Shown: piece after piece, positions 9,161 to 45,140 of the stretch
Layout: every line of letters begins with the position of its first letter
Position numbering within the stretch: the first letter of the stretch is position 1
From: Rhodospirillales bacterium
GTDB taxonomy: Bacteria > Pseudomonadota > Alphaproteobacteria > ATCC43930 > CGMCC-115725
Reading direction: 5' to 3'
DNA length: 64,000 nt
Assembly: GCA_028288725.1 (NCBI GenBank)
Contig: JAQGIC010000062.1
Location: 62,001-126,000, forward strand
Made by a program: the position numbers and the translations under genes
Notes under the pieces: model-generated
Databases searched by the model: none
What the model was told of the DNA's origin: nothing
What the model saw: only the letters and a program-made list of their open reading frames with translations

Positions 9161-9210
9161 TCGCGCATGAGGGCGTTGAGGGGCGTGGCCTCATGTCATC
9201 GCGCTCTCTA
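9161..9210. repeat. Dispersed palindrome, type B (diverged copy)
   Basis: An imperfect palindrome with left part TCGCGCATGAGG and right part GGCCTCATGTCATCGCGC followed by TCTCTA. It matches the type B units at 11568, 26520 and 31559. The last three bases (9208-9210, CTA) are the complement of the hisE stop codon TAG. The copy lies between convergent genes. Confidence 0.6.
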
Positions 9211-10865: not shown

Positions 10866-11570
10866 ATGAACCTCGACGAAGCCTTCTATCGTTTGATCCT
10901 GGCGCTGGTCTGCGGCGCGCTCATCGGCATCGAACGACAATGGCGCCAGAAGATGGCGGGTCTGCGCACCAACGTGCTGGTCGCGATCGGTGCCGCGGCT
11001 TTCGTGCTGTTCGCCTATCGGGTGACCCCCATCGGCGACGCCACGCGCATGGCCGGCCAGGTCGTGACCGGCATCGGTTTCCTCGGCGCCGGCGTGATCA
11101 TGCACGAGGGCGTCAATGTCCATGGGCTGAACACCGCCGCGACGCTCTGGTGCTCGGCCGCGGTCGGCATGTTCGCCGGCGCCGGCCTGCTGGCCGAGGC
11201 CGCGATCTTCGCCGTCTTCGTCACGCTGACCAACCTGGTCATGCGCCCGATCGTGACGCTCATCAACCGCTTTACCGGACCGGCGGCCGAGATCGAGCAG
11301 CATTACGTGATCAAGGTCGTGGCCGCCAAGGCCGACGAGGCGCGGCTGCGCGCCGGCCTGCTGGAGGCGCTCGAGGCCGGGCACCTGGGCCTGCAGCAGT
11401 TGAAGAGCATCGGCCTCGACGAAGGCGAGATCGAGATCACGGCGACGATCGTCGCCCCCCATCGCGAAGACGCCAAGCTGGAGGCGATCGTCAGCCGCGC
11501 CAGCCTGCAACCCTCGGTCAGCGCCGCCAAATGGCAGGTGGCGCCGAGCGAGCGGACACCGTCGGACTAG
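10866..11570 (+). CDS. MgtC/SapB family inner-membrane protein
   Basis: 234 residues. The N-terminal half has about four membrane segments with the MgtC/SapB patterns CGALIGIERQWRQKMAGLRT, VVTGIGFLGAGVIM and GLNTAATLWCSAAVGM. The C-terminal half (about 145-234) is a soluble ACT-like regulatory domain. MgtC proteins modulate F-type ATPase or ion homeostasis, notably under low magnesium (family knowledge). It follows the FAD oxidoreductase by 16 bases and is probably co-transcribed with it. Its TAG stop is the first three bases of a type B palindrome. Confidence 0.88.
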   Translation: MNLDEAFYRLILALVCGALIGIERQWRQKMAGLRTNVLVAIGAAAFVLFAYRVTPIGDATRMAGQVVTGIGFLGAGVIMHEGVNVHGLNTAATLWCSAAVGMFAGAGLLAEAAIFAVFVTLTNLVMRPIVTLINRFTGPAAEIEQHYVIKVVAAKADEARLRAGLLEALEAGHLGLQQLKSIGLDEGEIEITATIVAPHREDAKLEAIVSRASLQPSVSAAKWQVAPSERTPSD

Positions 11571-11682
11571 AGCGCGATGATATGAGGCCTGCTCGGTCTC
11601 ATATCTGAATCGCGCTCTAAATCAAATATTTAGAGACTGATTCACCGATCAAACCGAGCTGGTTTGATCGGATCAGGCTCTA
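11568..11682. repeat. Composite 115-bp palindromic element (B unit, spacer, A unit)
   Basis: Unit B is 11568-11619, with arms TAGAGCGCGAT / ATCGCGCTCTA and inner ATATGAG / CTCATAT. An 11-bp spacer is at 11620-11630. Unit A is 11631-11682, with arms CCGATCAAACC / GGTTTGATCGG. The first three bases are the stop codon of the mgtC-like gene and the last three (CTA) are the phnX stop read on the other strand. The same composite occurs in reverse orientation at 31496-31610. Confidence 0.85.
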
Positions 11683-12498
11683 AGGTTGTTCGCCCCGGGC
11701 CATCCGACCCTCGATCGCATCCAGGACCGGCAGCAGGTCGGCCACGCTGTCGATGACGTAATGCGCACCTGAAAGCGTCAGCGCGCGGGCCGCGGTCGCA
11801 CGACGCTCGGCGAATTCCGCCGGCGCCAGGGCCGCGGTCTCGGCCGCCGACAGGCCGAAGCCGTTGCCGCTGACCGACAATCCCACGGTCCAGGTGCCGG
11901 CATTCAGCCCTTCCTCGATGCCGGGCACCGTGTCATCGACCTTGATGACGGAGGCCGGCGCCCAGATGCCGAGGTCGGTGAAGCAGCGATACATCATCAG
12001 CGGGCCGGGCCGGCCTTCGCTCAGATCGCCGGCGCAGACCAGATTGTCGGGCACATAGCCGGCCTCGGCCGCGATCGGCGCCAGCACGTCCATGATCGGC
12101 CGGTTGTAGCCGGTGGTCGATCCGATCTTGAGACCGCGGGCGCGCAATGCCGCGACCGTGTCGAGCGCGCCGGGGATGAGGTCGGCGAACCGCGGCACGA
12201 CCTCGGCATTCAACGGCGTGAACACTTCATAGATCCGATCCGCGTCCGCGTCGGCGAAGGTGCTGCCATGGGCCGCCTGCCAGCGCGCGGCCACGGCCGG
12301 CTGCCGGCCGACCGCCTGGATATGCTGCCACTTCGGCAGGCCCATGGGCGCCCGCGCCTCGGCGATCGAGATTTCGACGCCGAAGCGTTTGAAGACCTCG
12401 ACGAACACGCCCATCGGCGCCCGGCTGCCGTGGTCGACGATGGTGCCGGCCCAGTCGAACACGACCGCCTGGATCTTGCCGCCGTAAGGTCGGACCAT
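11680..12498 (-). CDS. phnX: Phosphonoacetaldehyde hydrolase
   Basis: A 272-residue HAD-superfamily enzyme. The signature AVVFDWAGTIVDHGSRAP contains nucleophile D15 and the alanine A17 that replaces the usual second Asp in PhnX. K56 in MGLPKWQHIQAV matches the Schiff-base lysine. TTGYNRPIMDVL and IKVDDTVPGIEEG complete the active site. It cleaves phosphonoacetaldehyde to acetaldehyde and phosphate. It is the last gene of phnS-T-U-V-X on the minus strand, 133 bases beyond the permease. The ATG at 12498 follows AGGGGAA. Confidence 0.95.
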   Translation of the reverse strand: MVRPYGGKIQAVVFDWAGTIVDHGSRAPMGVFVEVFKRFGVEISIAEARAPMGLPKWQHIQAVGRQPAVAARWQAAHGSTFADADADRIYEVFTPLNAEVVPRFADLIPGALDTVAALRARGLKIGSTTGYNRPIMDVLAPIAAEAGYVPDNLVCAGDLSEGRPGPLMMYRCFTDLGIWAPASVIKVDDTVPGIEEGLNAGTWTVGLSVSGNGFGLSAAETAALAPAEFAERRATAARALTLSGAHYVIDSVADLLPVLDAIEGRMARGEQP

Positions 12499-26519: not shown

Positions 26520-26571
26520 TGGCGGATGCGTCAGACATGAGGCCAAGCCGGCCTCATGTCATCGCGCATCA
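26520..26571. repeat. Dispersed palindrome, type B (diverged copy)
   Basis: The inner arms ACATGAGGCC / GGCCTCATGT enclose AAGCC. The right end TCATCGCGC is shared with the type B units at 11568 and 31559. The last three bases (26569-26571, TCA) are the complement of the TGA stop of the CBS-domain gene. It lies between convergent mutL and the CBS gene. Confidence 0.65.
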
Positions 26572-28543: not shown

Positions 28544-29109
28544 GCGGCGCCGGCGTAGCGCATCAGGATCAAGCGCGCGGCGCCGTAGCGCCGCTCGTCC
28601 TCGATGGCGAACCCGTCGGGGGCGGCGAATTCCTCCTTGGCGCCGACCTCGAGCACGACGATGGCGCCCGCCGCGATCCAGCCGGCCGCGACCAGGTTCT
28701 TCAAGGTCGGCGGCGCGATGTTCTTGCCGTAGGGCGGGTCGAGGAACACCAGCGAGCAGGGCTGCGGCGCCCTGGCCGGGGCGACCGCGTCGCCGCGCAG
28801 GATGGTGACGCGCGATCCTTCCTTCAGCGCCGCGACATTGATCTTGATCGTCTCGAGCGCGACCGGCGCCAGCTCCAGGAACGTGACATGGCCGGCCCCG
28901 CGCGACAGCGCTTCCAGGCCGATGGCACCGGTGCCGGCGAAGGCATCCAGCACGCGGGCGCCGGCGATCGGCGAGCCGGCGGCAGCCCAGCGGCCGTGCT
29001 CCAGGATGTTGAACAGCGATTCGCGCGCCCGGTCGCTGGTCGGGCGGACCTTGTCGCCCTCGGGAACGGCGATCGGCCGCCCGCGGTGACTACCGCCGAC
29101 GATCCGCAT
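28540..29109 (-). CDS. rsmD: 16S rRNA (guanine966-N2)-methyltransferase
   Basis: 189 residues starting at MRIVGGSHRGRPI (ATG at 29109). The SAM-binding loop is LDAFAGTGAIGLEALSRGA, followed by TFLELAP, and the catalytic motif is FLDPPYGK. These define RsmD, which methylates G966 of 16S rRNA in the small subunit. The start lies 20 bases inside the end of the upstream pseudouridine synthase gene. Longer frames upstream are just the low-complexity tail of that gene read in another frame. Confidence 0.93.
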   Translation of the reverse strand: MRIVGGSHRGRPIAVPEGDKVRPTSDRARESLFNILEHGRWAAAGSPIAGARVLDAFAGTGAIGLEALSRGAGHVTFLELAPVALETIKINVAALKEGSRVTILRGDAVAPARAPQPCSLVFLDPPYGKNIAPPTLKNLVAAGWIAAGAIVVLEVGAKEEFAAPDGFAIEDERRYGAARLILMRYAGAA

Positions 29110-30226
29110 TGCGCGGGCCTCCCGGCTTCTTCGGCGCATCGCCCGACCGGGACGGCGCGCGTTCTGTGCGGGCGCCGGCCGGCTTGGGTCCGGCCGGACG
29201 TGGGGCCGGCCGGCCGGGCGGGCGGTCCGCCGATCTGTCGGCCGATCGTTCCGGCGCCGCCCGCGGGCCTGCGGGCTTGGCGCCGGTTCTGGCGACGGGC
29301 TTGCCATAGGCCGGCCGGCCCTCGGCCGATCGCTCGTCCGCGGGCGCCGGCGGACGGCCGCGCTTCGGTGCCGGCTCGACCGCGCGATGGGGTTTCGGAA
29401 TCCGGACTTTGCCCTTGGGCGCCGCCGGCTCGTCCTTCAGCGTCAGGGTCCGGCGCGCGGCCCCCTTGTCCTTGGCGGCGCCCAGGCCCAGCTGGTCGCG
29501 CAGCACGCGGCGCGGCACTTCCTCGATCGCGCCGCGCGGCAGCAGGCCCAGCTGGAACGGCCCGTAGGACAGGCGCAGCAGCCGGGTCACGACATAGCCC
29601 AGATGCTCGAACACCTTGCGGATCTCGCGGTTCTTGCCCTCGGTCAGCGCCACCGTCACCCAGGCGTTGGAGCCCTTCTGGCGCTCGAACTCGACCTCGA
29701 TCTTGCCATAGCGCACGCCGTCGATGACCACGCCGTCGGTCAGCGCCAGGAAGCGCTCCGGCTCGACCGTGCCATGGACGCGGACCTTGTAGCGCCGGAC
29801 CCAGCCGGTCGAGGGCAGCTCCAGCTTGCGCGCCAGCTCGCCGTCGTTGGTCAGCAGCAGCAGCCCTTCGGAATTCAGATCCAGGCGGCCCACGGAAATG
29901 ACCCGGCCCAGTTCCGGCGGCAGCGTGTCGAACAGGGTCTCGCGGCCCTTCTCGTCGCGGTGCGAGGTCACCAGGCCGGCCGGCTTGTGGTAGCGCCACA
30001 GCTTGGACGGCGCCGGCTCCTTCAGCGGCTTGCCGTCGACCATCACGATCGAGCCGGGCGTGACGACGAAGGCCGGCGTCAGCAGGACCTTGCCATCGAC
30101 TGCGACGCGGCCTTCCTCGATCCAGCGCTCGGCATCGCGCCTGGAGCACAGGCCGGCGCGCGCCAGCACCTTGGCGATCCGGTCGCCCTTGGGTCCGCCG
30201 GCGTCGGGACCGGTGTCGTCGCTCAT
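29090..30226 (-). CDS. RluB/RsuA-family rRNA pseudouridine synthase with long basic tail
   Basis: 378 residues. An N-terminal S4 RNA-binding domain (about 14-65, RIAKVLARAGLCSRRDAERW) is followed by the catalytic domain with GRLDLNSEGLLLLTNDG (catalytic D116) and EGKNREIRKVFEHLGY. The length of the core matches RluB. From about residue 255 the protein is an Arg/Pro/Ala-rich low-complexity tail of some 120 residues, common in alphaproteobacterial members and likely RNA-binding. RluB modifies U2605 of 23S rRNA (family knowledge); RluE/RluF-type specificity cannot be excluded. Confidence 0.9.
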   Translation of the reverse strand: MSDDTGPDAGGPKGDRIAKVLARAGLCSRRDAERWIEEGRVAVDGKVLLTPAFVVTPGSIVMVDGKPLKEPAPSKLWRYHKPAGLVTSHRDEKGRETLFDTLPPELGRVISVGRLDLNSEGLLLLTNDGELARKLELPSTGWVRRYKVRVHGTVEPERFLALTDGVVIDGVRYGKIEVEFERQKGSNAWVTVALTEGKNREIRKVFEHLGYVVTRLLRLSYGPFQLGLLPRGAIEEVPRRVLRDQLGLGAAKDKGAARRTLTLKDEPAAPKGKVRIPKPHRAVEPAPKRGRPPAPADERSAEGRPAYGKPVARTGAKPAGPRAAPERSADRSADRPPGRPAPRPAGPKPAGARTERAPSRSGDAPKKPGGPRNADRRR

Positions 30227-30228
30227 GT

Positions 30229-30948
30229 CTATCGTCCTTGGGCCGCCGCGACGAAGGCGCGCATCAGCGCCTCGTCGGCCGGGCCGATCTCGAATTCGGG
30301 GTGCCATTGCACGCCGATGCAGAAGCGCCGGCCCGGCAGCTCGATGCCTTCGATCACGCCGTCGGGCGCGACCGCGTCCACTACCACGCCGGGGCCGACG
30401 GTCTTGACCGCCTGATGATGGGCCGAATTGACCGCGAAGCGGGCTGTCGCCACGATGTCGTGCAGGATCGTGCCGGGCGTGATCGTCACGTCATGGCCGG
30501 GCTCGTTGCGCGGGTTGGGCTGCTCATGGGCCAGCGGATCCGCGATCTCGTCCGGGATATGCTGGACCAGCGTGCCGCCCAACGCCACGTTCAGCAGTTG
30601 CTGGCCGCCGCAGATGCCCAGCACCGGCTTGTCGGCCGCCAGCGCCGCGCGCGTGATCGCCAGTTCGAACGCGGTGCGCCGGTCCTTGGTCGTGACGCTG
30701 TCATGGCGGCTTTCGGCGCCGAACAGTGCTGGATCGACATCGAACGCGCCGCCGGTCACGATCAGACCGTCGATCAGCTCGAGATACCGGGCCGCCTGCT
30801 CCGGCTCGTGCGGCAGCAGGATCGGCAGGCCGCCGGCGCGCACGACCGCCCCGCAGTAATTCTCGCGGATCGCGTACCAGGGAAATTTGGAGTAGCCACC
30901 GGGCTTCTCCGAATCGAGAGTAAGGCCGATGATTACGGGGCGGGACAT
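30229..30948 (-). CDS. Class I glutamine amidotransferase-like hydrolase (peptidase C26, PuuD-like)
   Basis: 239 residues. The nucleophile is C113 in VLGICGGQQLLN, with the His-Glu of the triad in VQWHPEFE. NSAHHQAVK is typical of the gamma-glutamyl-GABA hydrolase group (PuuD) of polyamine breakdown. No other puu genes are nearby, so the substrate is uncertain. It is first in a run with the pseudouridine synthase (two-base gap) and rsmD. A 10-bp-arm inverted repeat sits 9-33 bases upstream of its start. Confidence 0.85.
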   Translation of the reverse strand: MSRPVIIGLTLDSEKPGGYSKFPWYAIRENYCGAVVRAGGLPILLPHEPEQAARYLELIDGLIVTGGAFDVDPALFGAESRHDSVTTKDRRTAFELAITRAALAADKPVLGICGGQQLLNVALGGTLVQHIPDEIADPLAHEQPNPRNEPGHDVTITPGTILHDIVATARFAVNSAHHQAVKTVGPGVVVDAVAPDGVIEGIELPGRRFCIGVQWHPEFEIGPADEALMRAFVAAAQGR

Positions 30949-30956
30949 GGGCGATC

Positions 30957-30981
30957 CTTATGGTCGAAGCCCGACCATAAG
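30957..30981. promoter_or_regulatory. 25-bp inverted repeat between divergent genes
   Basis: CTTATGGTCG (30957-30966) and CGACCATAAG (30972-30981) are perfect 10-base arms around AAGCC. It sits in the 67-base divergent interval, eight bases upstream of the amidotransferase start. It could be an operator or an RNA hairpin in the leader. Confidence 0.5.
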
Positions 30982-31015
30982 CGTCCCCGGAAACGCGCGC
31001 AACGCCAGGGAACGC

Positions 31016-31498
31016 ATGGGTATGGGGCGTATAGGGGCCAGGGAGACCAAAGAACCGACCTTGATGGATCGGGCGCTCGACCAGGCGCGGGCGGCCGCGG
31101 TCGCGGGCGAAGTGCCGGTCGGCGCCGTGCTGGTCGAGGCCGCGACCGGCCGCATTCTGGCCCTGACGCGCAACCGGATCGAGGAATTGAAGGACCCGAC
31201 CGCCCATGCCGAGATCCTGGCGATCCGCGCCGGCTCGGCCGCGCTGGGCAGTCCGCGCTTGGCCGGCTGCGACCTTTACGTGACGCTGGAGCCTTGTCCG
31301 ATGTGCGCCGCCGCGATCGCCTTCGCCCGGCTGCGCCGGGTCTATTACGGCGCCGGCGATCCCAAGGGCGGGGCGGTCGATCACGGCGTCCGTCTGTTCG
31401 ACCAGCCGACCTGCCATCACCGGCCGGAGGTCTATGGCGGTATCGGCGAGACCGAGGCGGCCGGTTTGTTGCGCGAGTTCTTCCGGGCCCGCCGCTAG
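31016..31498 (+). CDS. tadA: tRNA-specific adenosine(34) deaminase
   Basis: 160 residues from the ATG at 31016 (CAGGGAA upstream); a shorter start at 31064 (MDRALDQA) would match the family's usual N-terminus. Zinc and catalytic motifs of cytidine/deoxycytidylate deaminases are present: H64-A-E66 and PCPMC with C94/C97. EVPVGAVLV and DPKGGAVDHGV fit TadA, which makes inosine at the wobble position of tRNA-Arg(ACG). Its TAG stop forms the first three bases of a type A palindrome. Confidence 0.93.
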   Translation: MGMGRIGARETKEPTLMDRALDQARAAAVAGEVPVGAVLVEAATGRILALTRNRIEELKDPTAHAEILAIRAGSAALGSPRLAGCDLYVTLEPCPMCAAAIAFARLRRVYYGAGDPKGGAVDHGVRLFDQPTCHHRPEVYGGIGETEAAGLLREFFRARR

Positions 31499-31610
31499 AG
31501 CCTGATCCGATCAAGCCGGCTCGGCTTGATCGGTGAATCAGTCTCTAAACATATGATTTAGAAGGCAATTCAGATGTGAGGCCGAGCAGGCCTCATATCA
31601 TCGCGCGCTA
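31496..31610. repeat. Composite 115-bp palindromic element, inverted copy (A unit, spacer, B unit)
   Basis: Unit A is 31496-31547 (arms CCGATCAAGCC / GGCTTGATCGG, each changed at the same position relative to the 11.6-kb copy, so pairing is kept). An 11-bp spacer is at 31548-31558 and unit B at 31559-31610. The whole is the reverse complement of the element at 11568-11682, with the same spacer length. The first three bases are the tadA stop codon. Confidence 0.85.
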
Positions 31611-31712
31611 GCCCTGCGCGTGCGGCAGGGCGCCCTGCAGTCGGGTACCCTGGACGGGATGCTTGCGCATACAAATATGACCGCTGTCCCGTTCCGCCAG
31701 GCAGCCCTCCCC

Positions 31713-32909
31713 ATGTCCGAGCCCACGACCGTCGAAGTTCCGCTGACCCAACGCGCCGTGCTCGTCATGGCCGGCGCCTGTGGGTTCGGTGCCGCCAACA
31801 TCTATTACAATCAGCCGATGCTGGCCGATATCGTGCGCGATCTGGGCAGCCCGGCCGCCGCCGGCGTGGTCCCGACCGTGACCCAGGTCGGCTATGCGCT
31901 GGGCCTGTTGCTGCTGTCGCCGCTCGGCGACCGGTTCGATCGCAAGACCCTGATCCTGGGCAAGCTGGTCGGCCTCATCCTGGCGCTGGGCCTGGCCGCG
32001 ATCTCGACCAATCTCGTCACCCTGGCCGTGGCCAGCCTCGCGATCGGCGTGCTGACCACCTTCATCCAGCAGATCGTGCCGATGGCGGCCCATCTGGCGG
32101 CCCCGGCCAAGCGCGGCCAGGTCGTGGGCACGGTCATGAGCGGCCTGCTGATCGGCATCCTGGGCGGCCGGGTGCTGTCGGGCATCGTCGCCGAGCATCT
32201 GGGCTGGCGCGAGATGTTCGCAATCGCCGCCGGCATGATGATCGTGCTGTGGGGCGTGCTGTTCGTCCTGCTGCCGCGCACCGCGCCGACCTCGGGCCTG
32301 GGTTATCCGGCGCTGATGCGGTCGCTCTGGCACCTGTTCCGGGCCGAGCGCGTGCTGCGCGAGGCCTCGGCGGTCGGCGGGCTGATGTTCGCCGCCTTCA
32401 GCGCCTTCTGGGCGACCTTGACGCTCTATCTGGCCAGTCCCGTCTATCATCTGGGGCCGGAGGCCGCGGGCCTGTTCGGGCTGGTCGGCATCGCCGGCGC
32501 GCTGGCCGCCCCCCTGGCCGGCCGTCTGGCCGATCGCGGCGGGCCCCGCCGGACGGTCGGCATCGCCATCGTCGTCGCCTTCGCGGCCTATGCCGTGTTC
32601 GCCGTCGCCGGCCAGTCGCTCTGGGGCCTGGTCGCCGGCGTGCTGCTGCTCGATCTGGGCGTTCAGGGCGCCATGGTCTCCAACCAGTCGCGCATCTACG
32701 CGCTCCGCCCGGAATCGCGCAGCCGCGTCAACACGGTCTATATGGTGATCTATTTCGCCGGCGGCTCGACCGGCTCGGCCTTGGGCGCGCTCGCCTGGAA
32801 TTACGGCGGCTGGCTCGCGGTCTCGGGCGTCGGCTTGGGCCTGGCCCTGCTGGCCTTCGCGATCCATGCCTTGAGCCCGCGCGACGCGGTCGCGAATGCC
32901 GCGGCCTAA
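31713..32909 (+). CDS. Major facilitator superfamily transporter
   Basis: About 398 residues from the ATG at 31713; an in-frame ATG at 31659 would add 18 residues. It has 12 hydrophobic segments, and the MFS motif A is LGDRFDRKTLI between segments 2 and 3. The second half repeats it as AGRLADRGGPRRT. The N-terminal YYNQPML is seen in the drug/sugar efflux-type MFS group. The substrate is unknown and the neighbours give no clue. It begins about 100 bases after the composite palindrome. Confidence 0.85.
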   Translation: MSEPTTVEVPLTQRAVLVMAGACGFGAANIYYNQPMLADIVRDLGSPAAAGVVPTVTQVGYALGLLLLSPLGDRFDRKTLILGKLVGLILALGLAAISTNLVTLAVASLAIGVLTTFIQQIVPMAAHLAAPAKRGQVVGTVMSGLLIGILGGRVLSGIVAEHLGWREMFAIAAGMMIVLWGVLFVLLPRTAPTSGLGYPALMRSLWHLFRAERVLREASAVGGLMFAAFSAFWATLTLYLASPVYHLGPEAAGLFGLVGIAGALAAPLAGRLADRGGPRRTVGIAIVVAFAAYAVFAVAGQSLWGLVAGVLLLDLGVQGAMVSNQSRIYALRPESRSRVNTVYMVIYFAGGSTGSALGALAWNYGGWLAVSGVGLGLALLAFAIHALSPRDAVANAAA

Positions 32910-32964
32910 TCGCTTGCCAGCGGCCGGTCGTCCGAAGGACATTGCGATACGATCATTCGAGGGG

Positions 32965-33957
32965 ATGAGCAGAGTGGGACGTGGCGCGCTTCTGATTCTG
33001 GGTCTCGGCCTGTTGTTGGCCGGACCGGCCCGCGCCGATGCGCGACACTGGGACATGCCGACCGAATATCCCCATGATTCCATGCCGGGCGCCGGGGTCG
33101 ACCGCTTTGCCGCGGAATTGAACGAGCGCAGCCACGGCGCGATCGTGGTTACGCCCAGCTACGATGCGGCGCTGGGCTTCAAGGGCATCGCCCTGTTGCG
33201 CGCGATCGAGGGCGGCACGCTGCCGCTCGGCGACAGTTTCGCCGGGCCGCTGGGCGAAATGGCACCGATCTTCCTGCTGTCGTCGCTGCCCTTCGTCGCG
33301 ACCTCGTTCGAGGATGCGCTGCGGCTCTATCGTGTCGCCAGGCCCGCCTATGAGGCGGCATTCGCCCAGCATCATCAGCGCCTGCTCTATGCCACGCCCT
33401 GGCCGCCGACCGGCCTCTGGGCGAAGCATCCGGTGCTGACGCCGGCCGATCTCGCCGGCCTGTCGCTGCGCGCCTATGACGAGACCAGCCGGCAGGTTAT
33501 GACGGCGAGCGGTGCCGAGGCCGTCTACCTCTCCTTTGCCGATGCCATGCCGCGCCTCAAGGACGGCTCGCTCCAGGGCGTGCTGTCGTCGGGCGACGGC
33601 GGTGCCGGCCGCAAGCTGTGGGATTATCTGCCCAGCTTCACCGCGATCAACTATGCCGTCCCGCTCAGCCTCGCCAGCATCAACGAAGATGCGTACCTGG
33701 CTTTGCCGGTCGAACAGCGTCAGGCGGTCGAGGCGGCCGCGCACGCGACCGAAATCGCGCAATGGCAATTGGTCCGCGTCCGGCTCGAGGCGAATTACGC
33801 GACCATGCGCGCCAACCATGTCGAGATCGCCCAGGCGCCGGGGCCGGCGTTGAAGGATCTGCTGGCGAAATCCGCCGATGGCGCGATCACCGCCTGGAAG
33901 GCCCAGATCGGCCGGGACGGCGCTGCGGTGCTCGCCGCCTACCAGACCCAGCATTAG
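32965..33957 (+). CDS. Orphan TRAP-type periplasmic binding protein (DctP-like)
   Basis: About 330 residues from the ATG at 32965. A GTG at 32974 has better spacing from GAGGGG and may be the true start. Signal peptide: GALLILGLGLLLAGPARADA. The mature part has DctP traits: MPTEYPHDSMPGAGVDRFAAELNERS, SGAEAVYLSFADAMPRLKDG, PSFTAINYAVPLSLASINEDAY. No DctQ or DctM gene is adjacent, so it must work with a distant permease or act as a sensor or chaperone. Its TAG stop starts a type A palindrome. Confidence 0.8.
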   Translation: MSRVGRGALLILGLGLLLAGPARADARHWDMPTEYPHDSMPGAGVDRFAAELNERSHGAIVVTPSYDAALGFKGIALLRAIEGGTLPLGDSFAGPLGEMAPIFLLSSLPFVATSFEDALRLYRVARPAYEAAFAQHHQRLLYATPWPPTGLWAKHPVLTPADLAGLSLRAYDETSRQVMTASGAEAVYLSFADAMPRLKDGSLQGVLSSGDGGAGRKLWDYLPSFTAINYAVPLSLASINEDAYLALPVEQRQAVEAAAHATEIAQWQLVRVRLEANYATMRANHVEIAQAPGPALKDLLAKSADGAITAWKAQIGRDGAAVLAAYQTQH

Positions 33958-34006
33958 AGCCTGATCCGATCAAACCGGCTCGGTTTGATCGGTGCATCAG
34001 TCTCCA
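33955..34006. repeat. Dispersed palindrome, type A
   Basis: A 52-bp unit with arms CCGATCAAACC / GGTTTGATCGG around GGCTC-type centre bases. The first three bases are the stop codon of the DctP-like gene. After it only a short stretch like the composite's spacer remains before the next gene, so the B unit is missing here. Confidence 0.8.
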
Positions 34007-34011
34007 AGCAT

Positions 34012-34773
34012 TTAGGGAAACTGGTCGTCCGGCCAGGCCTGATCGCTTTCCCAGAAGCCGATCGGGTTGTTGGTCGTGCCGTGCCAGCCCGCGGCATAGC
34101 GATAGGTCGTCAGATCGACGACGAACTCTTGCTGGTCGGCCCAGGCCGGATTGGCCCAGTTCGGATGACAGGCGATGACCTGGATCGCCTTGCCCGTGCC
34201 GGGCTTGCCGTCGGGTCCGGGCGTCGTGTCGTCGACGATCCGCCAGGCGTTCTTGAGCGAACTGACCAGCACCGCGCGGTCGGGCAGGTCCTCGGCGCGC
34301 AATTGGCCGTGGTCGACCACCATCAGGCTGGTTTCCAGACCGGCGTAGGACCCGACACCCAAGCTGTGATCGCCGCTGACCAGGAAAGTCGGGGCGCCGT
34401 CATGGAGCTGCTGCCGTTCGATATCGGCCAACGGCACGTCGAAGCTCCGGTCGACGACGACCGCGCCCGTCGCATCCATCAGGCGCAGATGCGCGTTCTT
34501 CAGCGGCGCCTTGGCGAGGATCTTGCGCAGCGGGTCGCCTTCGGACAGGACCAGATCCAGATCGGTGGTCTGCTGCCACATCTCGGCCCTGAGCGTCGGC
34601 GTAATCCGGCTGTCCTCCAGGAGCTGCACCGATCCTGCGATGCCGTTCACGGCTGGGTCGAGCGCCAGGCTCCTGTGAATCGCGTAGCCGTCGGGCGCGG
34701 CCGGCTCGCCCGCCCGGGCCGGGGCGGCGAGCGCCAGGGCGAGCAGGCAGAGCGCCGTGCGGATCGAGGCCAC
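34012..34773 (-). CDS. Secreted hypothetical protein
   Basis: About 253 residues from a GTG at 34773 that begins a signal peptide (ASIRTALCLLALALAAPARA-GE). A longer ATG start at 34854 would overlap purD by 73 bases. The mature protein has no recognised motif. It has DLDLVLSEGDPLRKILAKAPLKNAHLRLMD-type alpha/beta sequence and a C-terminal part rich in Trp and Asn (CHPNWANPAWADQQEF). It is probably periplasmic or secreted. It starts eight bases after purD on the same strand and may be co-transcribed. Confidence 0.65.
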   Translation of the reverse strand: MASIRTALCLLALALAAPARAGEPAAPDGYAIHRSLALDPAVNGIAGSVQLLEDSRITPTLRAEMWQQTTDLDLVLSEGDPLRKILAKAPLKNAHLRLMDATGAVVVDRSFDVPLADIERQQLHDGAPTFLVSGDHSLGVGSYAGLETSLMVVDHGQLRAEDLPDRAVLVSSLKNAWRIVDDTTPGPDGKPGTGKAIQVIACHPNWANPAWADQQEFVVDLTTYRYAAGWHGTTNNPIGFWESDQAWPDDQFP

Positions 34774-34781
34774 GGGCGCGA

Positions 34782-36074
34782 TCAGTGCTTGCCGCCCTGC
34801 TCGCGGGCGACGGCGCGCCAGCCGATGTCGCGCCGGCAGAAGCCCTCGGGCCATTGGATCTTATCGACCGCCAGATAGGCCCGGGCCTGGGCCTCGGCAA
34901 CCGAGGCGCCGAGCGCGGTCACGACCAGAACCCGGCCGCCGTCGGCGACGATCTTATCGGCCCTCCACGCGGTGCCGGCATGGAAGACTTCCACCGTGGG
35001 CGCCGCCGTCGCGGCGGCGTCGAGCCCGGCGATCGCGGTGCCCTTGCGCGGCGTTTCGGGGTAACCCTCCGCCGCCATGACCACGCCCAACGCCGCCTCC
35101 GGGCGCCAGTCGAGCGTGGTCCGGTCGAGCGTGCCTTCGCGGGATGCGATCAGCGCCGGCAACACGTCCGACTTCAGCCGGCGCAGCAGCACCTCGCATT
35201 CCGGATCGCCGAAGCGGACGTTGTATTCGATCAGCTGCGGCCCGGTGGCGGTCAGCATCAGTCCGGCGAACAGCACACCCCTGAACGGCTTGCCCTCGGC
35301 CGCCATGCCGGCAAGCGTCGGGCGGATGATGCGGTCCATCACGTCGCGCTCCAGCGCGGGCGTCAGCGCCGGGGCCGGGGAATAGGCGCCCATGCCGCCG
35401 GTGTTGGGGCCGGTATCGCCGTCGCCGACCGCCTTGTGATCCTGGGCGGACGCGAGCGGAATGGCGGTCTTGCCGTCGACCAGCGCGAAGAAGCTCACTT
35501 CCTCGCCGGCCAGATATTCCTCGATCACGATCTCGATGCCGGCATCGCCGAAGCGACGGTCGAGCATCATGGCGTCGACCGCTTCCAGCGCCTCGTCCAG
35601 CTTCATGGCGACGACCACGCCCTTGCCGGCAGCGAGCCCGTCGGCCTTGACCACGATCGGCGCGCCGCGCCGGCGGATCTCGGCCTTGGCCGCGTCCGGA
35701 TCGGTCGTGCGCAGATAAGACCCGGTCGGCACGCCGTATTTGGCGCAGAGATCCTTGGTGAAACCTTTCGATCCTTCGAGCTCGGCCGCGGCCTTGGACG
35801 GCCCAAAGCATTTGAAGCCATGGGCCTCCAGATGATCGACCAGGCCGGCGACCAGCGGCGCTTCCGGTCCGACCACGACGAAATCGATGCGTTCGGCGCG
35901 GGCCAGCGCCAGCAGGCCGTCGAGGTCGGTAACGCCGACGGGGCGGCAATCGGCCAGATCCTGGATGCCGGCGTTGCCGGGCGCACAGATCAGCGCGTCG
36001 CACAGCGGCGAGGCCTTCATCGCCCAGCAGAGCGCATGTTCGCGCGCGCCGGACCCCACGACCAGAATTCGCAT
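34782..36074 (-). CDS. purD: Phosphoribosylamine-glycine ligase
   Basis: 430 residues from the ATG at 36074 (GAGGG upstream); a GTG two codons earlier is possible. It has an ATP-grasp fold with N-terminal [40 protein letters not shown] and the metal-binding [12 protein letters not shown]. It joins glycine to phosphoribosylamine in the second step of purine synthesis. The length is standard. It is divergent from xseA across 74 bases. Confidence 0.96.
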
Positions 36075-36148
36075 CGCCACCCTCGTCCTGAAATCACATG
36101 TGTCTTGAAAGCACTGTCGCCCGTCGGCCGGCTTTCATATCATAGCCC

Positions 36149-37756
36149 ATGGTTTCGGATATCCCCCCCTCGCAGCCCGGCGCCCCTGCGCCCGGCACAA
36201 GTCCCTCGAATGTCCCGGTCTATTCGGTCGGCGAGATTTCCGGCGCGCTGAAACGGACGATCGAGCAGGCCTACGGCTATGTCCGCGTGCGCGGCGAGAT
36301 CAGCGGCTGCAAGCGCCATGGCTCGGGCCATATCTATCTGGCGCTGAAGGACATGGATGCCGTGATCGACGCCGTGTGCTGGCGCGGCTCCACGGGCCGG
36401 CTGAAGGTCGATCCGGCCGACGGCATCGAGGTGATCGCGACCGGTCGCCTCACCACCTTCCCCGGCCGTTCGAAGTATCAGATGGTGATCGAGCAGATGG
36501 AGCTCGCCGGGGAAGGCGCGCTGCTGAAGCTGCTGGAAGACCGCAAGCGCAAGCTCATGGCCGAAGGCCTGTTCGCGGCGGAGCGCAAGCGGGCGCTGCC
36601 TTATCTGCCGACGGTCATCGGCGTCGTGACCTCGCCGACCGGCGCCGTCATCCGCGACATCCTGCATCGCCTCAACGAGCGCTTTCCGCGCCATGTGCTG
36701 CTGTGGCCGGTCGCGGTTCAGGGCGAGACGGCGGCCGAGCAGGTCGCGCGCGCCATCGACGGCTTCAACCGGATCGAACCGGGCGGCCCGATCCCGCGCC
36801 CGGATCTGATCATCGTGGCGCGCGGTGGCGGCAGCCTCGAAGACCTGATGGCCTTCAACGAGGAGATCGTCGTCCGCGCGGCGGCGGCGAGCACAATTCC
36901 GCTCATCTCCGCGGTCGGGCACGAGACCGACACGACCTTGATCGATTTCGCCAGCGATCGGCGCGCGCCGACGCCGACCGCGGCTGCCGAAATGGCCGTG
37001 CCGGTGCGGCTCGACCTCCTGACCGAGGTGCGCGGCCTGGGCGGCCGGCTCGATGCGGCCTCGATCCGCCTGGTCGAGGACCGGCGCCTGCGGCTCGACG
37101 GGCTTGCGCGGGGCCTGCCCGATCCGGTCCGCCTGATAGAGGCGGCGGAACAGCGGCTCGACGACCGGGCCGAGCGGCTGAAGCTGTCGATCGGCGCGCT
37201 ACTGCGCGACCGGGCGGCGCGCATCGCGACCGCGGCGGCGCAGCTGAAGCATCCGCGCCAGCAGATCGCCGAGCATGAGCGGCATCTGGCCGGAACCGCG
37301 CTCCGCCTGCGGCCGGCGCTCGACCGGGCCCTGGAGCGCGCCGCCGAACGGGTGGGATTGGTCGGCGACCGGCTCCGTGCCGTGCCGATGCTGCCGGCGA
37401 TCGATCGGCGGGCACAGGATGTGGCGGCGCTCGGACTCCGGCTCGACGCCGCTGCCCGGCGCGACACGGCGGCGCGGGGCGAACGGCTCAACCGAATGAC
37501 CCAGGTGCTGGAGTCGCTGTCGCCGTTCAAGGTGCTGGAGCGCGGCTATGCCGTGGTGGAGGATCGCGCCGGTCAGCCGCTCGATGCCCGTGCGATCGAG
37601 CCCGGGATGGCGCTGACGTTGCGCTTCCATGACGCGACCGTCGCGGCCCGGGCCGAGGCCCGCGCCGCCGGCCTGGACGATCAACCGCCGCCGGCGCCGA
37701 AGCCGGCGAAGAAAACCAAGCCCGAGCCGGAAGCGCGGCAGCCGAGTTTGTTCTAA
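36149..37756 (+). CDS. xseA: Exodeoxyribonuclease VII large subunit
   Basis: 535 residues. An N-terminal OB-fold (about 18-115; YSVGEISGALKRTIEQAYG, GHIYLALKD) precedes the catalytic domain with VVTSPTGAVIRDILHRLNERFP, ARGGGSLEDLMAFNEE and SAVGHETDTTLIDFASDRRAPTPTAAAE. A long helical coiled-coil region (about 290-450) follows, then a C-terminal segment (VLERGYAVVEDRAG). The enzyme degrades single-stranded DNA together with XseB (not in the window). It is followed by a type A palindrome. Confidence 0.96.
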   Translation: MVSDIPPSQPGAPAPGTSPSNVPVYSVGEISGALKRTIEQAYGYVRVRGEISGCKRHGSGHIYLALKDMDAVIDAVCWRGSTGRLKVDPADGIEVIATGRLTTFPGRSKYQMVIEQMELAGEGALLKLLEDRKRKLMAEGLFAAERKRALPYLPTVIGVVTSPTGAVIRDILHRLNERFPRHVLLWPVAVQGETAAEQVARAIDGFNRIEPGGPIPRPDLIIVARGGGSLEDLMAFNEEIVVRAAAASTIPLISAVGHETDTTLIDFASDRRAPTPTAAAEMAVPVRLDLLTEVRGLGGRLDAASIRLVEDRRLRLDGLARGLPDPVRLIEAAEQRLDDRAERLKLSIGALLRDRAARIATAAAQLKHPRQQIAEHERHLAGTALRLRPALDRALERAAERVGLVGDRLRAVPMLPAIDRRAQDVAALGLRLDAAARRDTAARGERLNRMTQVLESLSPFKVLERGYAVVEDRAGQPLDARAIEPGMALTLRFHDATVAARAEARAAGLDDQPPPAPKPAKKTKPEPEARQPSLF

Positions 37757-37785
37757 TCAGATTGATGAGTTGTGGTCCTGCCCAC

Positions 37786-37834
37786 TCGAGCCTGATCCGA
37801 CCGAACCGAGCCGGTTCGATCGGATCAGGCTCTA
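37786..37834. repeat. Dispersed palindrome, type A
   Basis: GAGCCTGATCC and GGATCAGGCTC are long outer arms, with inner CGAACCG / GGTTCGATCGG. This is the most symmetrical copy in the window. The last three bases (37832-37834, CTA) are the complement of the stop codon of the acetyltransferase gene. It sits between convergent xseA and that gene. Confidence 0.8.
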
Positions 37835-38266
37835 GGAGCGCCGCTCCATCGCCTTCTCCGGCTCGGCGATCACGGTGAAGCCGAATTGCCCGTACAGCCC
37901 GTGGGCGTCGCGGGTGAACAGGCTCCAGCGTCGTAGATCCTGCAGGTCGGGATGCGCCAGGATGGCGCCGACCAGGAATTTCGACAGGCCTCGGCCGCGA
38001 TGGCTCGCCAGGACCCAGACATCGGACAGATTGGCGAAGGTGGCGTAATCGGTGACGACGCGGGCCCAGCCGACCAGCATGCCGTCGGGCGCATAGATGC
38101 CGAACGGCAGGGAATGGGCGAAGGCGCGCGCGACCTTGTCGAAGCTGCGCCCCTCGGCCCAATAGCTCTCGGTCGAGAGCGTGCGATGGATCAGGTCCAG
38201 ATCCAGACGCGCCGGATCGGTGCTGATGGTGAAGTCGTCGCGGGTGAGCTCAAAGATCGGGATCAT
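37832..38266 (-). CDS. GNAT-family N-acetyltransferase
   Basis: 144 residues. The acetyl-CoA loop (Q/R)xxGxG is HRGRGLSKFLVGAIL, preceded by the beta-strand LSDVWVLASH. The C-terminal LYGQFGFTVI is typical of the fold. The substrate is not predictable. The gene precedes the lpxL-like gene's end by ten bases on the same strand, so it may be read through from the lipid A operon. Confidence 0.85.
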   Translation of the reverse strand: MIPIFELTRDDFTISTDPARLDLDLIHRTLSTESYWAEGRSFDKVARAFAHSLPFGIYAPDGMLVGWARVVTDYATFANLSDVWVLASHRGRGLSKFLVGAILAHPDLQDLRRWSLFTRDAHGLYGQFGFTVIAEPEKAMERRS

Positions 38267-38276
38267 GGAAACCTCG

Positions 38277-39161
38277 TTAGTCCGGCCAGCGCCGGTGCAG
38301 CCAGAACCAATGGCCGGGCCGCGCCCGGATCCAGCCTTCCAGCATGTGGTTGATCATCGTCATCAGGGCCAGCGTATCGGCGGCCCTGTCGCCGCTCGCC
38401 GGCAAGTCATGGGGCGGAAACACCGTGACCTGGAAGCGCGATCCGGGCAGCCGCTCGACCCGGGCCGGCAGCACCGTGCAGTCGTAGCGCAGCGCCAGCT
38501 CGGCGATCGCCGGGGCGGTCATGGCATCGCGGCCGAAGAAGGGCACGGCGATGCCGTCGTTCATCTTCTGGTCGACCAGCATGCACAGCGACTGGCCGGC
38601 CTTGATCGCGCCCAGGATCTTGCGGGCGCCCTGCGGGCCCTTTGGAATCGGGTCGGCACCCAGGTCGCGGCGCAGCTGGGTCATCATGCGGTCGACCAAA
38701 GGATTGTTCGCGGCGCGATAGATCGCGGCCAGCTTCAGGCCGTAGAGCGCGGCGGCGAGGGCCGCGACCTCCCAATTGCCGAAATGGCCGGAATAGAAGA
38801 TCAGCGGCTTGCCCCGCGCGATCGCGGCATCGACATGCTCCAGTCCGGTCGCCTGGATCGCCGCGCCGGGGGCGAAGGCATCCATGGTCTTCAGATGCGG
38901 AAACTCGCCGACGACCCGACCCAGATTGTCCCACATCTCCAGGATCGCCCGATCCCGCGCCGCCGCGTCCAGTTCGGGCAGGGCACGGGCCAGGTTGCGC
39001 CGCGCGCGCCGGGTGATGCCAAGGCGCGGCCCGATCATGCGCGCGATCCAGCCGCCCAACGCCGAGGCGCGGGGGCGCGAGAGCGTCCCGAACAGGCGCA
39101 TGGCGAGGCCGGCGAAAGCCGCTTCGATACGTTGGCCGGTGCGGATGTGCTCGTCGGTCAT
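38277..39161 (-). CDS. Lipid A biosynthesis acyltransferase (LpxL/HtrB family)
   Basis: 294 residues. The catalytic H(x)4(D/E) motif is HFGNWE, followed by the conserved KGPQGARKIL-type and VDQKMNDGIAVPFFGRDAMT segments. An N-terminal membrane-association helix is present. It transfers a secondary acyl chain to the Kdo2-lipid IVA precursor on the inner membrane. Its start overlaps the lpxK stop by four bases. It is the last lipid A gene in the operon msbA-like, DUF374, waaA, lpxK, lpxL. Confidence 0.9.
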   Translation of the reverse strand: MTDEHIRTGQRIEAAFAGLAMRLFGTLSRPRASALGGWIARMIGPRLGITRRARRNLARALPELDAAARDRAILEMWDNLGRVVGEFPHLKTMDAFAPGAAIQATGLEHVDAAIARGKPLIFYSGHFGNWEVAALAAALYGLKLAAIYRAANNPLVDRMMTQLRRDLGADPIPKGPQGARKILGAIKAGQSLCMLVDQKMNDGIAVPFFGRDAMTAPAIAELALRYDCTVLPARVERLPGSRFQVTVFPPHDLPASGDRAADTLALMTMINHMLEGWIRARPGHWFWLHRRWPD

Positions 39162-40141
39162 CCGGCCCCCAGCAGCGGTCGGATCAGCCGCCGGATCAGC
39201 GCTTCGTCGTCCGGGCGGTCCCAGGCGAGCCGGACCGCCAGGGTCTCGACCCGGGCGCGCAGCCCGGCAGGCAGGCGGACCCAGTCCTTGGTCGTCGTGA
39301 CGGCGACGGCACCGGCCTGGTCCGCTTCGCGCAGCAGATCGGCCATTTCCCCGGGCCGGTAGGGATGATGATCGGGAAAGCCGATCCCGGCGATCAGCTC
39401 GACGCCGAGGGCGGTCAGGCTGTCGAAGAATTTCTGCGGCCGGCCGATGCCGGCGAAAGCGACGATTCGGCGGCCGCGCCAGGGCCCGGCATCGCCGCTC
39501 GGCACCAGCCGCGCATGGGCCACGGGCAGGTCGCGGGCCAGATCGGCACCGAGATCGTCCCGGTCGTCGCCGATCAGCACGACCGCCTGGGCGCGGGCCA
39601 GGCCGCGCGCGCGGGGTTCGCGCAACGGCCCGGCCGGCATGACGCGGCCATTGCCGAAGCCATAGCCGGCATCGACCACCATCAGCGCCAGATCCTTGAC
39701 CAGCGACGGGTTCTGCAGGCCGTCGTCCATCAGGATCAGCCCGGCGCCGGCGGCGGCGGCGGCACGGCCGCCGGCCGGCCGGTCATGGGCGACCCAGGTC
39801 GGCGCCGCGGCGGCCAGCAGCAGCGCCTCGTCGCCGACGGCGCGGAAATCCTGGGTCGCGGGATCGACGCGGACCGGGCCCGACAAGGCACCGCCATAGC
39901 CGCGCGTCAGGATATGCGGGTGATGGCCGTCGGCGCTCAGCATTCGAGCCAGCTCCAGGGTCACCGGCGTCTTGCCGGCGCCGCCCGCCACCAGATTGCC
40001 GACGCAGAGCACGGGCACGGAAGCCTGCGCCGGCCGGGCCAGCGCCCGGCGCAGCGCGCCGGCCGCGGCGAAAACCTGCGCGGCCGGTTCGAGCGCCAGC
40101 GCTTGCCAGCCGCGCCGGCGCCAGAAGTCAGGCGCTTGCAT
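39158..40141 (-). CDS. lpxK: Tetraacyldisaccharide 4'-kinase
   Basis: 327 residues with an N-terminal membrane segment near FAAAGALRRALA. The P-loop is VGNLVAGGAGKTPVTLEL, and DDGLQNPSL matches the conserved catalytic segment of LpxK. It phosphorylates the 4' position of the lipid A disaccharide at the inner membrane. The start overlaps the end of waaA by 14 bases and the stop overlaps the lpxL-like start by four. Length is usual. Confidence 0.95.
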   Translation of the reverse strand: MQAPDFWRRRGWQALALEPAAQVFAAAGALRRALARPAQASVPVLCVGNLVAGGAGKTPVTLELARMLSADGHHPHILTRGYGGALSGPVRVDPATQDFRAVGDEALLLAAAAPTWVAHDRPAGGRAAAAAGAGLILMDDGLQNPSLVKDLALMVVDAGYGFGNGRVMPAGPLREPRARGLARAQAVVLIGDDRDDLGADLARDLPVAHARLVPSGDAGPWRGRRIVAFAGIGRPQKFFDSLTALGVELIAGIGFPDHHPYRPGEMADLLREADQAGAVAVTTTKDWVRLPAGLRARVETLAVRLAWDRPDDEALIRRLIRPLLGAG

Positions 40142-41435
40142 GGCGCGGTTCGGCCGGCTGCAAGGGGACGATCAGCGGTTCCAGCCGGGCCATGACGCCA
40201 TCGACGACGCCGCTCTGCGCCTCGGCTGCCGTCCGGGCGGCGAGGCCCATCGCCGTGCGGCGCGCGGGCTTGTCCAGCAGGGCGGCAACGGTCGCGGCCA
40301 GGCTGGCGGCGTCCGCAACCTCCAGGGCCGCGCCGGCCGCATGGAGGACGGCCGCGTTGGCCGCGCAATTGACCATGTCCGGCCCATGCAGGATGGCGGC
40401 GCCCAGCAGGGCCGGCTCGATCGGGTTATGGCCGCCGAGCGTGCCGGGCGGCAGCAGGGAGCCTGCGACCAGCACGATGCCGCCCAGCCGATAGAACAGC
40501 CCCATCTCGCCGAGCGTGTCGGCCAGATAGACTGCCGTCGCGGGCTGGATCGGTTCGCCGGCCGAGCGGCTGGCCACGCTCAACCCCCGGGCCGCGAGCA
40601 GCGCCGCGATCGCGGGCGCGCGGCTCGGATGCCGCGGAGCGAGCAGGGTCAGGAGGTCCGGGTGCCTGGCCGCCAGAATGCCATGGGCCTCGGCCACGAT
40701 CGTTTCCTCGCCCTCATGGGTCTGGGCGGCGAGCCAGACCGGCCGGTCGCCGATCGCTCGGGCCAGCGCCGCCAGCTCCGCCGGGTCGGCCGGCAGGGGG
40801 GCGGCCGAGGATTTGAGGTCGCCGACCGTCACGGCCGCGCGCGCGCCCAGCCGGTTGAGCCGGGCCGCCTGGGCCGCATCCTGGGCCAGTACCAGATCGA
40901 AACAGCCGAGCAGATGGCCGATCATGCCCGGAAAGCGCTGCCAGCCGCGCATCGACCGTTCGGACATCTTGGCATTCAGCAGCACCATCGGCACGCCACG
41001 TCGACGGGTTCCGGCGACCAGATTGGGCCAGAGCTCCGATTCGACCCAGATGGCCAGATCCGGCCGCCAATGGCTCAGAAATCCCTCGACCGCGTCCGGG
41101 TGATCGATCGGTACGTAGTGATGGAAGGCCCGGGCCGGCAGGCGCTGCGCCAGGAGCGAGGCCGAGGTGACGGTGCCGGAGGTCACCAGCACCTCCGCCG
41201 TCGGCAACCGGTCGAGCAGCCGGTCGATCAGCGGCAGCAGCGACAGCGACTCGCCGACGCTCGCCGCATGAGCCCAGATCAGCGGCCCGGCCGGGCGCGG
41301 CTTCGCCGCGCGGCCGAAACGTTCGTCGCGCCGGGCCGGATCCTCCTTGCCGCGCCGGGCGCGGCGGGCGAGGAACAGTTTGACGACCGGCAGAGCCGCG
41401 CGGGTCGCCAGCCGGTACGCGGCAAGCCAGCTCAC
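40128..41435 (-). CDS. waaA: 3-deoxy-D-manno-octulosonic acid (Kdo) transferase
   Basis: 435 residues from a GTG at 41435 that overlaps the stop of the DUF374 gene (GTGA). GT30 family: HAASVGESLSLLPLIDRLL, TSGTVTSASLLAQRLP, WVESELWPNLV, LNAKMSERSMRGW, and the nucleotide-sugar binding GGHNPIEPALLGAAILHGPDM. It adds Kdo to lipid IVA. Longer frames upstream are antisense or out-of-frame shadow of the neighbouring gene. It is placed between DUF374 and lpxK, the classic order. Confidence 0.95.
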   Translation of the reverse strand: MSWLAAYRLATRAALPVVKLFLARRARRGKEDPARRDERFGRAAKPRPAGPLIWAHAASVGESLSLLPLIDRLLDRLPTAEVLVTSGTVTSASLLAQRLPARAFHHYVPIDHPDAVEGFLSHWRPDLAIWVESELWPNLVAGTRRRGVPMVLLNAKMSERSMRGWQRFPGMIGHLLGCFDLVLAQDAAQAARLNRLGARAAVTVGDLKSSAAPLPADPAELAALARAIGDRPVWLAAQTHEGEETIVAEAHGILAARHPDLLTLLAPRHPSRAPAIAALLAARGLSVASRSAGEPIQPATAVYLADTLGEMGLFYRLGGIVLVAGSLLPPGTLGGHNPIEPALLGAAILHGPDMVNCAANAAVLHAAGAALEVADAASLAATVAALLDKPARRTAMGLAARTAAEAQSGVVDGVMARLEPLIVPLQPAEPRHASA

Positions 41436-42148
41436 GGCAAAGGCGCCCGGACGGCCGGCGCGGGGTCGATCGGGGCGTGGCCGCAGCGCCGGTCCGCCTC
41501 GGCGGTGAGCGCGTTCATCCGATCTTCCAGCAGCAGGCGCAGGCGCTCCTGCTCGGTCGCGTCCGCGTCCGACGGCACCAGGACCGGCTCGCCCCACAGG
41601 AACAGGCCGCGGCTGAACGGCAGGGCCAGATGAAACCGGTCCCAGCTGCCGAGCAGACGGCGCTGCGTGGTGGCGTAGCTCAACGGGATGATCGGCACCC
41701 GGCCCAGGCGCGCGGCCGCGATCACGCCGGCGCTCGCCCGCATGCAAGGGCCGCGCGGTCCGTCGGGCGTGAATCCCACGTTCTGGCCGCCGTTCAATGC
41801 CCGCACGATGGCGCGCAACGCGCTCGATCCGCCCTTGGACTTCGACCCGACAATCGTTCCGAGACCGAAATGACGAATGGCATCCGCGATGATGCGGCCA
41901 TCGGTATGACCCGAGATCAGCATGTTCATGGCGGCGTCGCGCGGCCAGGCCATCGGCGCCATCAGCAGACGGCCATGCCAGAACGCGAGAATGAACGGCT
42001 TGCCCTCGCGCCAATATTCCGCCGGCACCTCGCCGGCCTCGGTCGTGAACCGGCTCGTGGCATGGACCAGGCGAATATAGGCGGCGACCAACCGGCAGAG
42101 CAGCTGCCGGGTCCGATCCGCCCGAAGGATCCGTTTGGTCCAGCCCAT
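41432..42148 (-). CDS. DUF374 lysophospholipid-type acyltransferase
   Basis: 238 residues from the ATG at 42148. The acyltransferase H(x)4D block is represented by FWHGRLLMAP and SGHTDGRIIADAI, and VGFTPDGPRGPCMRASAGVIAAARLG is the DUF374 hallmark. The family is found between msbA and waaA in many alphaproteobacteria and is presumed to act on lipid A or a phospholipid. It has a four-base gap from the upstream ABC gene and a four-base overlap with waaA. Confidence 0.9.
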   Translation of the reverse strand: MGWTKRILRADRTRQLLCRLVAAYIRLVHATSRFTTEAGEVPAEYWREGKPFILAFWHGRLLMAPMAWPRDAAMNMLISGHTDGRIIADAIRHFGLGTIVGSKSKGGSSALRAIVRALNGGQNVGFTPDGPRGPCMRASAGVIAAARLGRVPIIPLSYATTQRRLLGSWDRFHLALPFSRGLFLWGEPVLVPSDADATEQERLRLLLEDRMNALTAEADRRCGHAPIDPAPAVRAPLP

Positions 42149-42152
42149 GGCG

Positions 42153-45118: not shown

Positions 45119-45140
45119 GGGCGTCTCCAGGGACCGGGCC

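Follow-up and report, generated by a model that had tools for sequence, protein, structure and literature searches.

The closest described systems to the repeat analysed here are the RUP, CIR and RIME repeats and the IS630-family elements ISRm2011-2 and ISRm10. In the accessible text of a 2007 review, the RUP of Streptococcus pneumoniae is a 107-bp element with ~108 intergenic copies, ends like those of a resident IS630 and TA at the target, and is thought to be a miniature element moved by IS630-Spn1 at TA (PMC2229807). The same text describes CIR (Caulobacter CcrM-associated intergenic repeats; Chen and Shapiro 2003) as alphaproteobacterial and intergenic, ~110 bp long, with two long hairpin arms, a linker, TA at the termini and GANTC at or in the terminal loop, gives no TIR and an uncertain TSD for them, and in its section 7 treats the mechanism of their mobility and the role of GANTC as undetermined (PMC2229807). 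A 2024 MITE review mentions CIR, in its accessible part, only as strictly intergenic (PMC10969869), and the name RIME (Rhizobium-specific intergenic mosaic element; Osteras et al. 1995) is cited in the available portion of PMC2573895. In the titles, abstract openings and cited passages of the open-licence literature searched, no paper was recognised that assigns CIR or RIME to an IS630 parent.

The window, the whole 64-kb stretch of DNA analysed, contains two 115-bp composites in inverted orientation, 11568-11682 (+) and 31496-31610 (-), both consisting of a 52-bp unit B, an 11-bp linker and a 52-bp unit A (Table 1), and a sequence-only reading that had described a B-spacer-A element and an inverted twin with equal unit and spacer lengths was correct in this. 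In a repeat search the inverted pair extends to 119 nt with 90% complementarity. Each arm forms an inner and an outer stem separated by a 3-nt bulge, and GAATC at positions 40-44 spans the junction of the bulge and the outer stem. The two hairpin arms, the linker, the length close to 110 bp, the GANTC and the TA termini are shared with CIR, whereas the placement of GANTC at the bulge between the inner and outer stems instead of the terminal loop, together with the matching ends and the TA duplication, differs from it; the composite is therefore termed CIR-like and is set apart from CIR by description.

Table 1. Coordinates of the composites, related repeats and associated features (window positions unless a contig of the source genome, G000, is given)
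Feature	Coordinates	Strand	Remarks
Composite B-linker-A, 115 bp	11568..11682	+	CTAA site between two convergent genes; empty site in G001 (same genus)
Unit B hairpin, 52 bp	11568..11619	+	Outer end TAGAGCGCGATGA, similar to the terminal repeat of IS630 (ISRm2011-2 type)
Linker, 11 bp, A+T-rich, AATCAAATATT	11620..11630	+	
Unit A hairpin, 52 bp	11631..11682	+	Outer end TAGAGCCTGATCCG, read inward from 11682
TAG at left end of composite	11568..11570	+	Stop codon of gene 10866-11570 (+)
TAG at right end of composite	11680..11682	-	Stop codon of convergent gene 11680-12498 (-)
CcrM site GAATC	11607..11611		40 bp from left end
CcrM site GATTC (GAATC read from right end)	11639..11643		40 bp from right end
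Second composite, 115 bp	31496..31610	-	CTAG site; precise empty site in G001
TAG from second composite	31496..31498	+	Stop codon of gene 30929-31498 (+)
CcrM site, A arm of second composite	31535..31539		B-arm site decayed
A-only copy	33955..34004	-	Its TAG ends gene 32896-33957
A-only copy, right arm on both sides	37788..37834	+	Perfected palindrome
B end fragment	9186..9207	-	
B fragment, ends missing	26531..26567	-	
IS5/IS427-like element L179	G000:C67:34833-35054		16-bp perfect repeat ACAGCGTTGACATTCA abutting CTAG on both sides
IS5/IS427-like element L180	G000:C142:22530-22739		

The source genome (5.54 Mb, 146 contigs) contains at least 40 full or near-full matches to the composite among the best 40 of 207 candidates. 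The left 21 bp of B, with up to 3 mismatches, is found at 113 places and the right 20 bp of A at 165, with none for the reversed-pattern control in either case, and the repeat is thus far above chance. Iterated nhmmer searches with A and B on 387,510 bases around matches, fetched around ~103 of the 113 B-end and ~100 of the 165 A-end places, gave 147 clusters comprising 81 composites, 34 A-only copies, 26 B-only copies and 6 others. The source genome holds at least 81 composites (a family of ~100 copies) in which the order and orientation of the units are always B-linker-A, and the length is exactly 115 bp in 37 of the 51 with both ends intact; among the copies at contig ends, at least one or two look like assembly duplicates with the same right flank (C130/C131, C120/C138). 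The composite is not limited to two sites, and the twin 20 kb away, to which the earlier reading had given weight, forms with its partner two of these composites, a pair with no meaning of its own. The suggestion that single units are partial derivatives is partly right: the linker is kept upstream in 18 of the 34 A-only copies, but downstream in no more than 6 of the 26 B-only copies.

Variant arrangements occur among the copies. A third hairpin module (ACGCTTGG or AACGCTTGG) lies beside the linker or the TAGAG end of the composite at G000:C137:3751, C115:40342, C62:12575 and C111:33595, which suggests a modular exchange of arms around a constant linker. At G000:C126:12210, C130:41565, C38:29531, C46:11833, C9:87204 and C89:48230 the B units are longer and carry a nested hairpin in the loop (CCTGCCGACGAGCTTCGCTCG...); these may represent an older form. 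In solo units of ~52 bp at G000:C65:2599, C142:13653 and C105:16119 the left arm of B is fused to an inverted left arm of A with loss of the linker, and two of these three have C..G flanks.

The composite begins with TAGAGC and ends with GCTCTA. The base preceding the left TAG is C at 49 of the 54 intact left ends in the source genome, compared with a background of 1531 of 5580 TA dinucleotides following C in the same DNA, and the base following the right CTA is G in 55 or A in 18 of the 76 intact right ends (73/76 G or A). The left end remains TAG in the 15 cases with A in the right flank, and the duplicated bases are thus TA within a CTAR target. Another genome of the same genus, G001, is largely collinear with the window over 29000-48900, and no full composite copy was found in it. 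Among the six composites of contig C80, two have precise empty sites in G001, those starting at window 11568 and 31496: the flanks of the former meet at a TAA stop, the gene having its TAA where the composite now starts, and those of the latter meet at a TGA stop with the element absent. Two other C80 loci are without the element in G001 with less clean flanks, one has both flanks placed, and the left flank of one C80 composite has no match in that genome. The flank statistics and the two precise empty sites together show the TA target duplication expected of an IS630-derived MITE, and the flanking duplications that the sequence-only reading proposed to look for are this TA at CTAR.

Genes were called with our own codon-usage caller trained on the window, and 125 intact ends with enough flank were classed. 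The TAG of the element is exactly the stop codon of the neighbouring gene at 59 of these (27 B ends and 32 A ends). A gap separates a further 41 from the gene 3' end that they face, 19 are directed at a gene 5' end (one overlapping) and the remaining 6 are more than 400 bp from any gene; a gene 3' end is thus faced by 100 of the 125, and at none of the 125 ends in the source genome does a gene run into the element. At least one stop is supplied by 50 of the 81 composites and both stops by 9, including 11568-11682. A 516-codon reading frame at window 31608 was rejected as a shadow frame let through by a crude G+C filter. With repeats excluded, 13 of the 40 CTAR sites in the window are at stops, 18 are intergenic and 9 intragenic, and the corresponding counts for 82 sites in 126 kb of G001 are 15, 45 and 22, so that CTAR is already concentrated at stops and outside genes; insertions are missing from the intragenic CTAR sites, and stop sites are used at least at their share. 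The G after the duplicated TA at the start of the element and the C before the TA at its end would re-create TAG at each end, so landing in a CTAR stop codon, even one common to two overlapping convergent genes, would leave each gene a stop, and intragenic insertions are absent, presumably purged. Stop-codon landing would be a simple, low-cost route of spread for a high-copy element in a gene-dense, G+C-rich genome.

The placement at gene 3' ends, 59 ends lying at the stop itself, could also be produced by a structured RNA or terminator selected there with compensatory changes that keep the stem, and a folded RNA under selection was one of the two explanations offered by the sequence-only reading. 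The fold is very stable: the two strands of 11568-11682 have z of -10.8 and -9.4, and 31496-31610 (+) has -5.8. The paired change noted earlier (AAACC/GGTTT versus AAGCC/GGCTT) is real, as 33 distinct full-length copies include 18 with A-T and 13 with G-C at pair 86-96. Both-sided changes occur in 13 of the 33 copies at this pair, in 5 at pair 14-36 and in 3 at pair 21-29, but these are the only three stem pairs with both-sided change in more than one copy, and the 1551 stem-pair cells include 27 double changes, 28 single changes and 69 broken pairs. Normal arms are present in 76 of the 115 A units; 14 carry the right arm twice and 1 the left arm twice, and the other 24 are unclassed, a few of them plainly belonging to these types. 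Replacement of one whole arm by a copy of the other is seen in at least 14 A units. Arm copying at the DNA level yields compensation as well and explains the perfected palindromes and compensatory changes without RNA selection, so the covariation that had been proposed as a check is seen in the arms, at few pairs, and is explained equally well by copying. Covariation was rejected as main evidence, the varying pairs being too few and confounded in this way. A search of the window with Rfam gave no match at gathering level, and the TA footprint and the absence of the burst from G001 also argue against selection on an RNA, which is considered improbable; a structured RNA at gene 3' ends can be a by-product of a miniature mobile element.

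The source genome has one IS630 gene (PF13358; NF033545 146.8 bits with a cut-off of 100), at L060 964-2028, present in two overlapping frames, both open, around an A7 run, and an A7 or A8 run lies at a like place in all 8 relatives checked. The element, a single copy with TAGAGCCGGATGA and TAGAGCGGGATGA at its ends, has T and A as flanking bases (TTAA) instead of CTAR; its locus (L060 1-3423, G000:C109) adjoins reading frames that by eye are ABC-transporter-like. The best named plasmid matches are to ISRm2011-2 of Sinorhizobium with 72% DNA identity. Of the 60 plasmid IS630 matches listed, 16 were read, picked for different genera. Ends were resolved for 13 alphaproteobacterial elements, five others being unresolved, and two outgroups were included. 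TAGAGC is present at both ends in 12 of the 13, and the outgroups have TACAGC and TATAGT. The resident IS630 and composite ends are not identical, the first 13 bases of B having 11 and 12 identities with the two resident ends. The composite has IS630-matching terminal repeats, both beginning TAGAGC, and an autonomous partner in the genome, as in an IS630-derived MITE. With 17 nt removed, a choice made to put GANTC in register so that the alignment is supportive and not blind, the B and A arms match the resident upstream end at 25 and 24 of 35 positions, and of the 13 upstream ends compared this one scores highest for both. Shuffled sequences in which TAGAGC and GANTC are kept score as high in fractions of 0.0022 (B) and 0.0042 (A), and the B arm treated in this way also has 19-21 of 35 identities with several IS630 downstream ends.

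GAATC is placed 40 bp from the outer end of each arm and is kept in 30 of 33 distinct 115-bp copies per side, although in young copies it is not clearly better retained than other positions of the element (mean site divergence 6%). Of the 13 alphaproteobacterial IS630 elements, 12 have GANTC at position 23 counted from the transposase-proximal end and none has it there at the distal end; most of the additional sites fall at 30-36 and 53-59. These 13 elements have 35 GANTC sites in 1950 terminal bp (75-bp stretches) against 5 in 11,737 internal bp, and shuffled ends give 6.7 on average and 13 at most. The motif TA[AGC]AGC-N16-GANTC is found in 20 of 47 IS630 loci, always on the transposase strand, and was not found in 190,105 bases of control DNA (window and G001). 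Positions 40 and 23 differ by 17 nt, roughly the length of the inner-hairpin loop together with its returning strand. The source genome carries a CcrM-like gene, which has a RAMA domain and matches NF050803 over 346 of 366 residues with 608.8 bits, below the cut-off of 830; the control for the RAMA-domain search matched only Caulobacter vibrioides among 14 genomes. GANTC is strongly under-represented in the window (65 observed, ~189 expected from base composition), and 3 of the sites are in the two composites. GcrA depends on GANTC methylation, according to the accessible part of PMC3667746, and the positions of the sites suggest that CcrM methylation or GcrA may gate transposase expression or binding. 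Methylation sites at the transposase-proximal end could in this way couple transposition to replication, as in IS10 and IS50, which are controlled by Dam methylation; those act through GATC and Dam in enterobacteria, whereas the present sites are GANTC for CcrM, known from sequence.

The composite is very probably a non-autonomous miniature IS630 (Tc1/mariner-superfamily) element. The mobilised miniature element put forward by the sequence-only reading is what the copy number, exact length, TA duplication, CTAR target, empty sites and matching IS630 point to. A transposase of ISRm2011-2 type would recognise the TAGAGC ends and insert the composite at CTAR with duplication of TA, and the resident IS630 is the candidate for moving it. 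Each 52-bp arm would represent the transposase-proximal (upstream) IS630 end, including the CcrM site, with the addition of a 17-nt hairpin return strand, and both arms probably derive from the upstream end of the resident element. The likeness to RUP consists in ends matching a resident IS630, a TA target and a high intergenic copy number, and the two are compared as mechanism only; the composite differs from RUP in having two hairpin arms and a linker, a CTAR target, stop reuse and CcrM sites at a fixed distance, and its relatives are alphaproteobacterial. ISRm2011-2 and ISRm10 share with it the TAGAGC ends, and with the resident element the transposase subgroup and GANTC at 23 of the upstream end, but are autonomous, 1.05 kb long with a transposase, and without such hairpin arms. 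IS630 elements prefer CTAG, and the pSymA copy of ISRm2011-2 has CTAG flanks.

A CTAG site is also used in this genome by the IS5/IS427 group, which has three DUF4096 matches, and the 16-bp perfect inverted repeat of one of these elements abuts CTAG on both sides; a miniature element of such a transposase is nevertheless very unlikely, as that inverted repeat is unlike the composite, whereas IS630 ends match at TAGAGC and beyond with the GANTC offset. Spread of a REP/BIME-type repeat by a RAYT (TnpA-REP, Y1) transposase, for which the earlier reading proposed a search and which would suit small palindromic units paired in a fixed intergenic composite, is barely credible, since Y1_Tnp (PF01797) has 0 matches in the genome and matches in 5 of 14 control genomes by the same search, and the 52-bp units with TA-duplicating ends are unlike REP, for which we know of no target duplication.

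A pattern scan of named genomes with the B arm matched at least 80 loci, and among the matches listed 80 of 80 are in Rhizobium. The 107 Rhizobium copies share the B arm and linker with the composite, are 115 bp long in 32 of the 46 with both ends found, and have an A arm that differs in sequence from that of the source genome. C precedes 67 of 79 left ends, and G follows 36 and A follows 16 of 54 right ends, in agreement with CTAR flanks. With genes called by our own codon-usage script, exact stop reuse occurs at 19 of 79 left ends and 4 of 54 right ends, and 8 of the 79 left ends are called as run into by a gene. These Rhizobium copies are probably the published RIME1. The pattern CTAGAGC-N88..110-GCTCTAR matched in 29 of 144 genomes of the class; its backwards-pattern control differs from it in composition and in many genomes gives more matches than the pattern itself, so the per-genome counts were not used and the 66 listed places outside the source genome were judged by fold and GANTC position. 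Of these, 45 fold strongly (z below -3), 32 of them with GANTC at 23 or 40 from an end, compared with 1 of the remaining 21 places. Elements similar to the composite occur across the class and in Rhizobium. The sequence of the composite itself was matched in only 3 of 61 near relatives, the source genome included and the two others in part, and the family therefore looks like a recent, lineage-specific burst.

The composite is a new sequence family of a known kind, a CIR/RIME-like repeat with a RUP-like mechanism, and within the literature searched the IS630 parent group, the CTAR and stop-codon landing and the exact 23/40 GANTC offset appear to be new. It is possible, and proposed here tentatively, that the CcrM-tagged two-armed repeats of alphaproteobacteria (the composite, the Rhizobium repeats and probably CIR and RIME) are miniature IS630 elements of the ISRm2011-2/ISRm10 type built from the transposase-proximal end, that GANTC at 23, or at 40 with the 17-nt strand, subjects the expression or the binding of the transposase to cell-cycle control by CcrM/GcrA, and that CTAR together with the first base of the element itself allows stop codons to be colonised without loss of function. 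This would be an alphaproteobacterial counterpart of Dam-gated transposition. The IS630-matching ends suggest an origin for puzzling methylation-tagged repeats in related bacteria, and the parent group, the target rule and the exact offset of the methylation site make the questions of CIR mobility and of the role of GANTC testable with one transposase and one methylase mutant.
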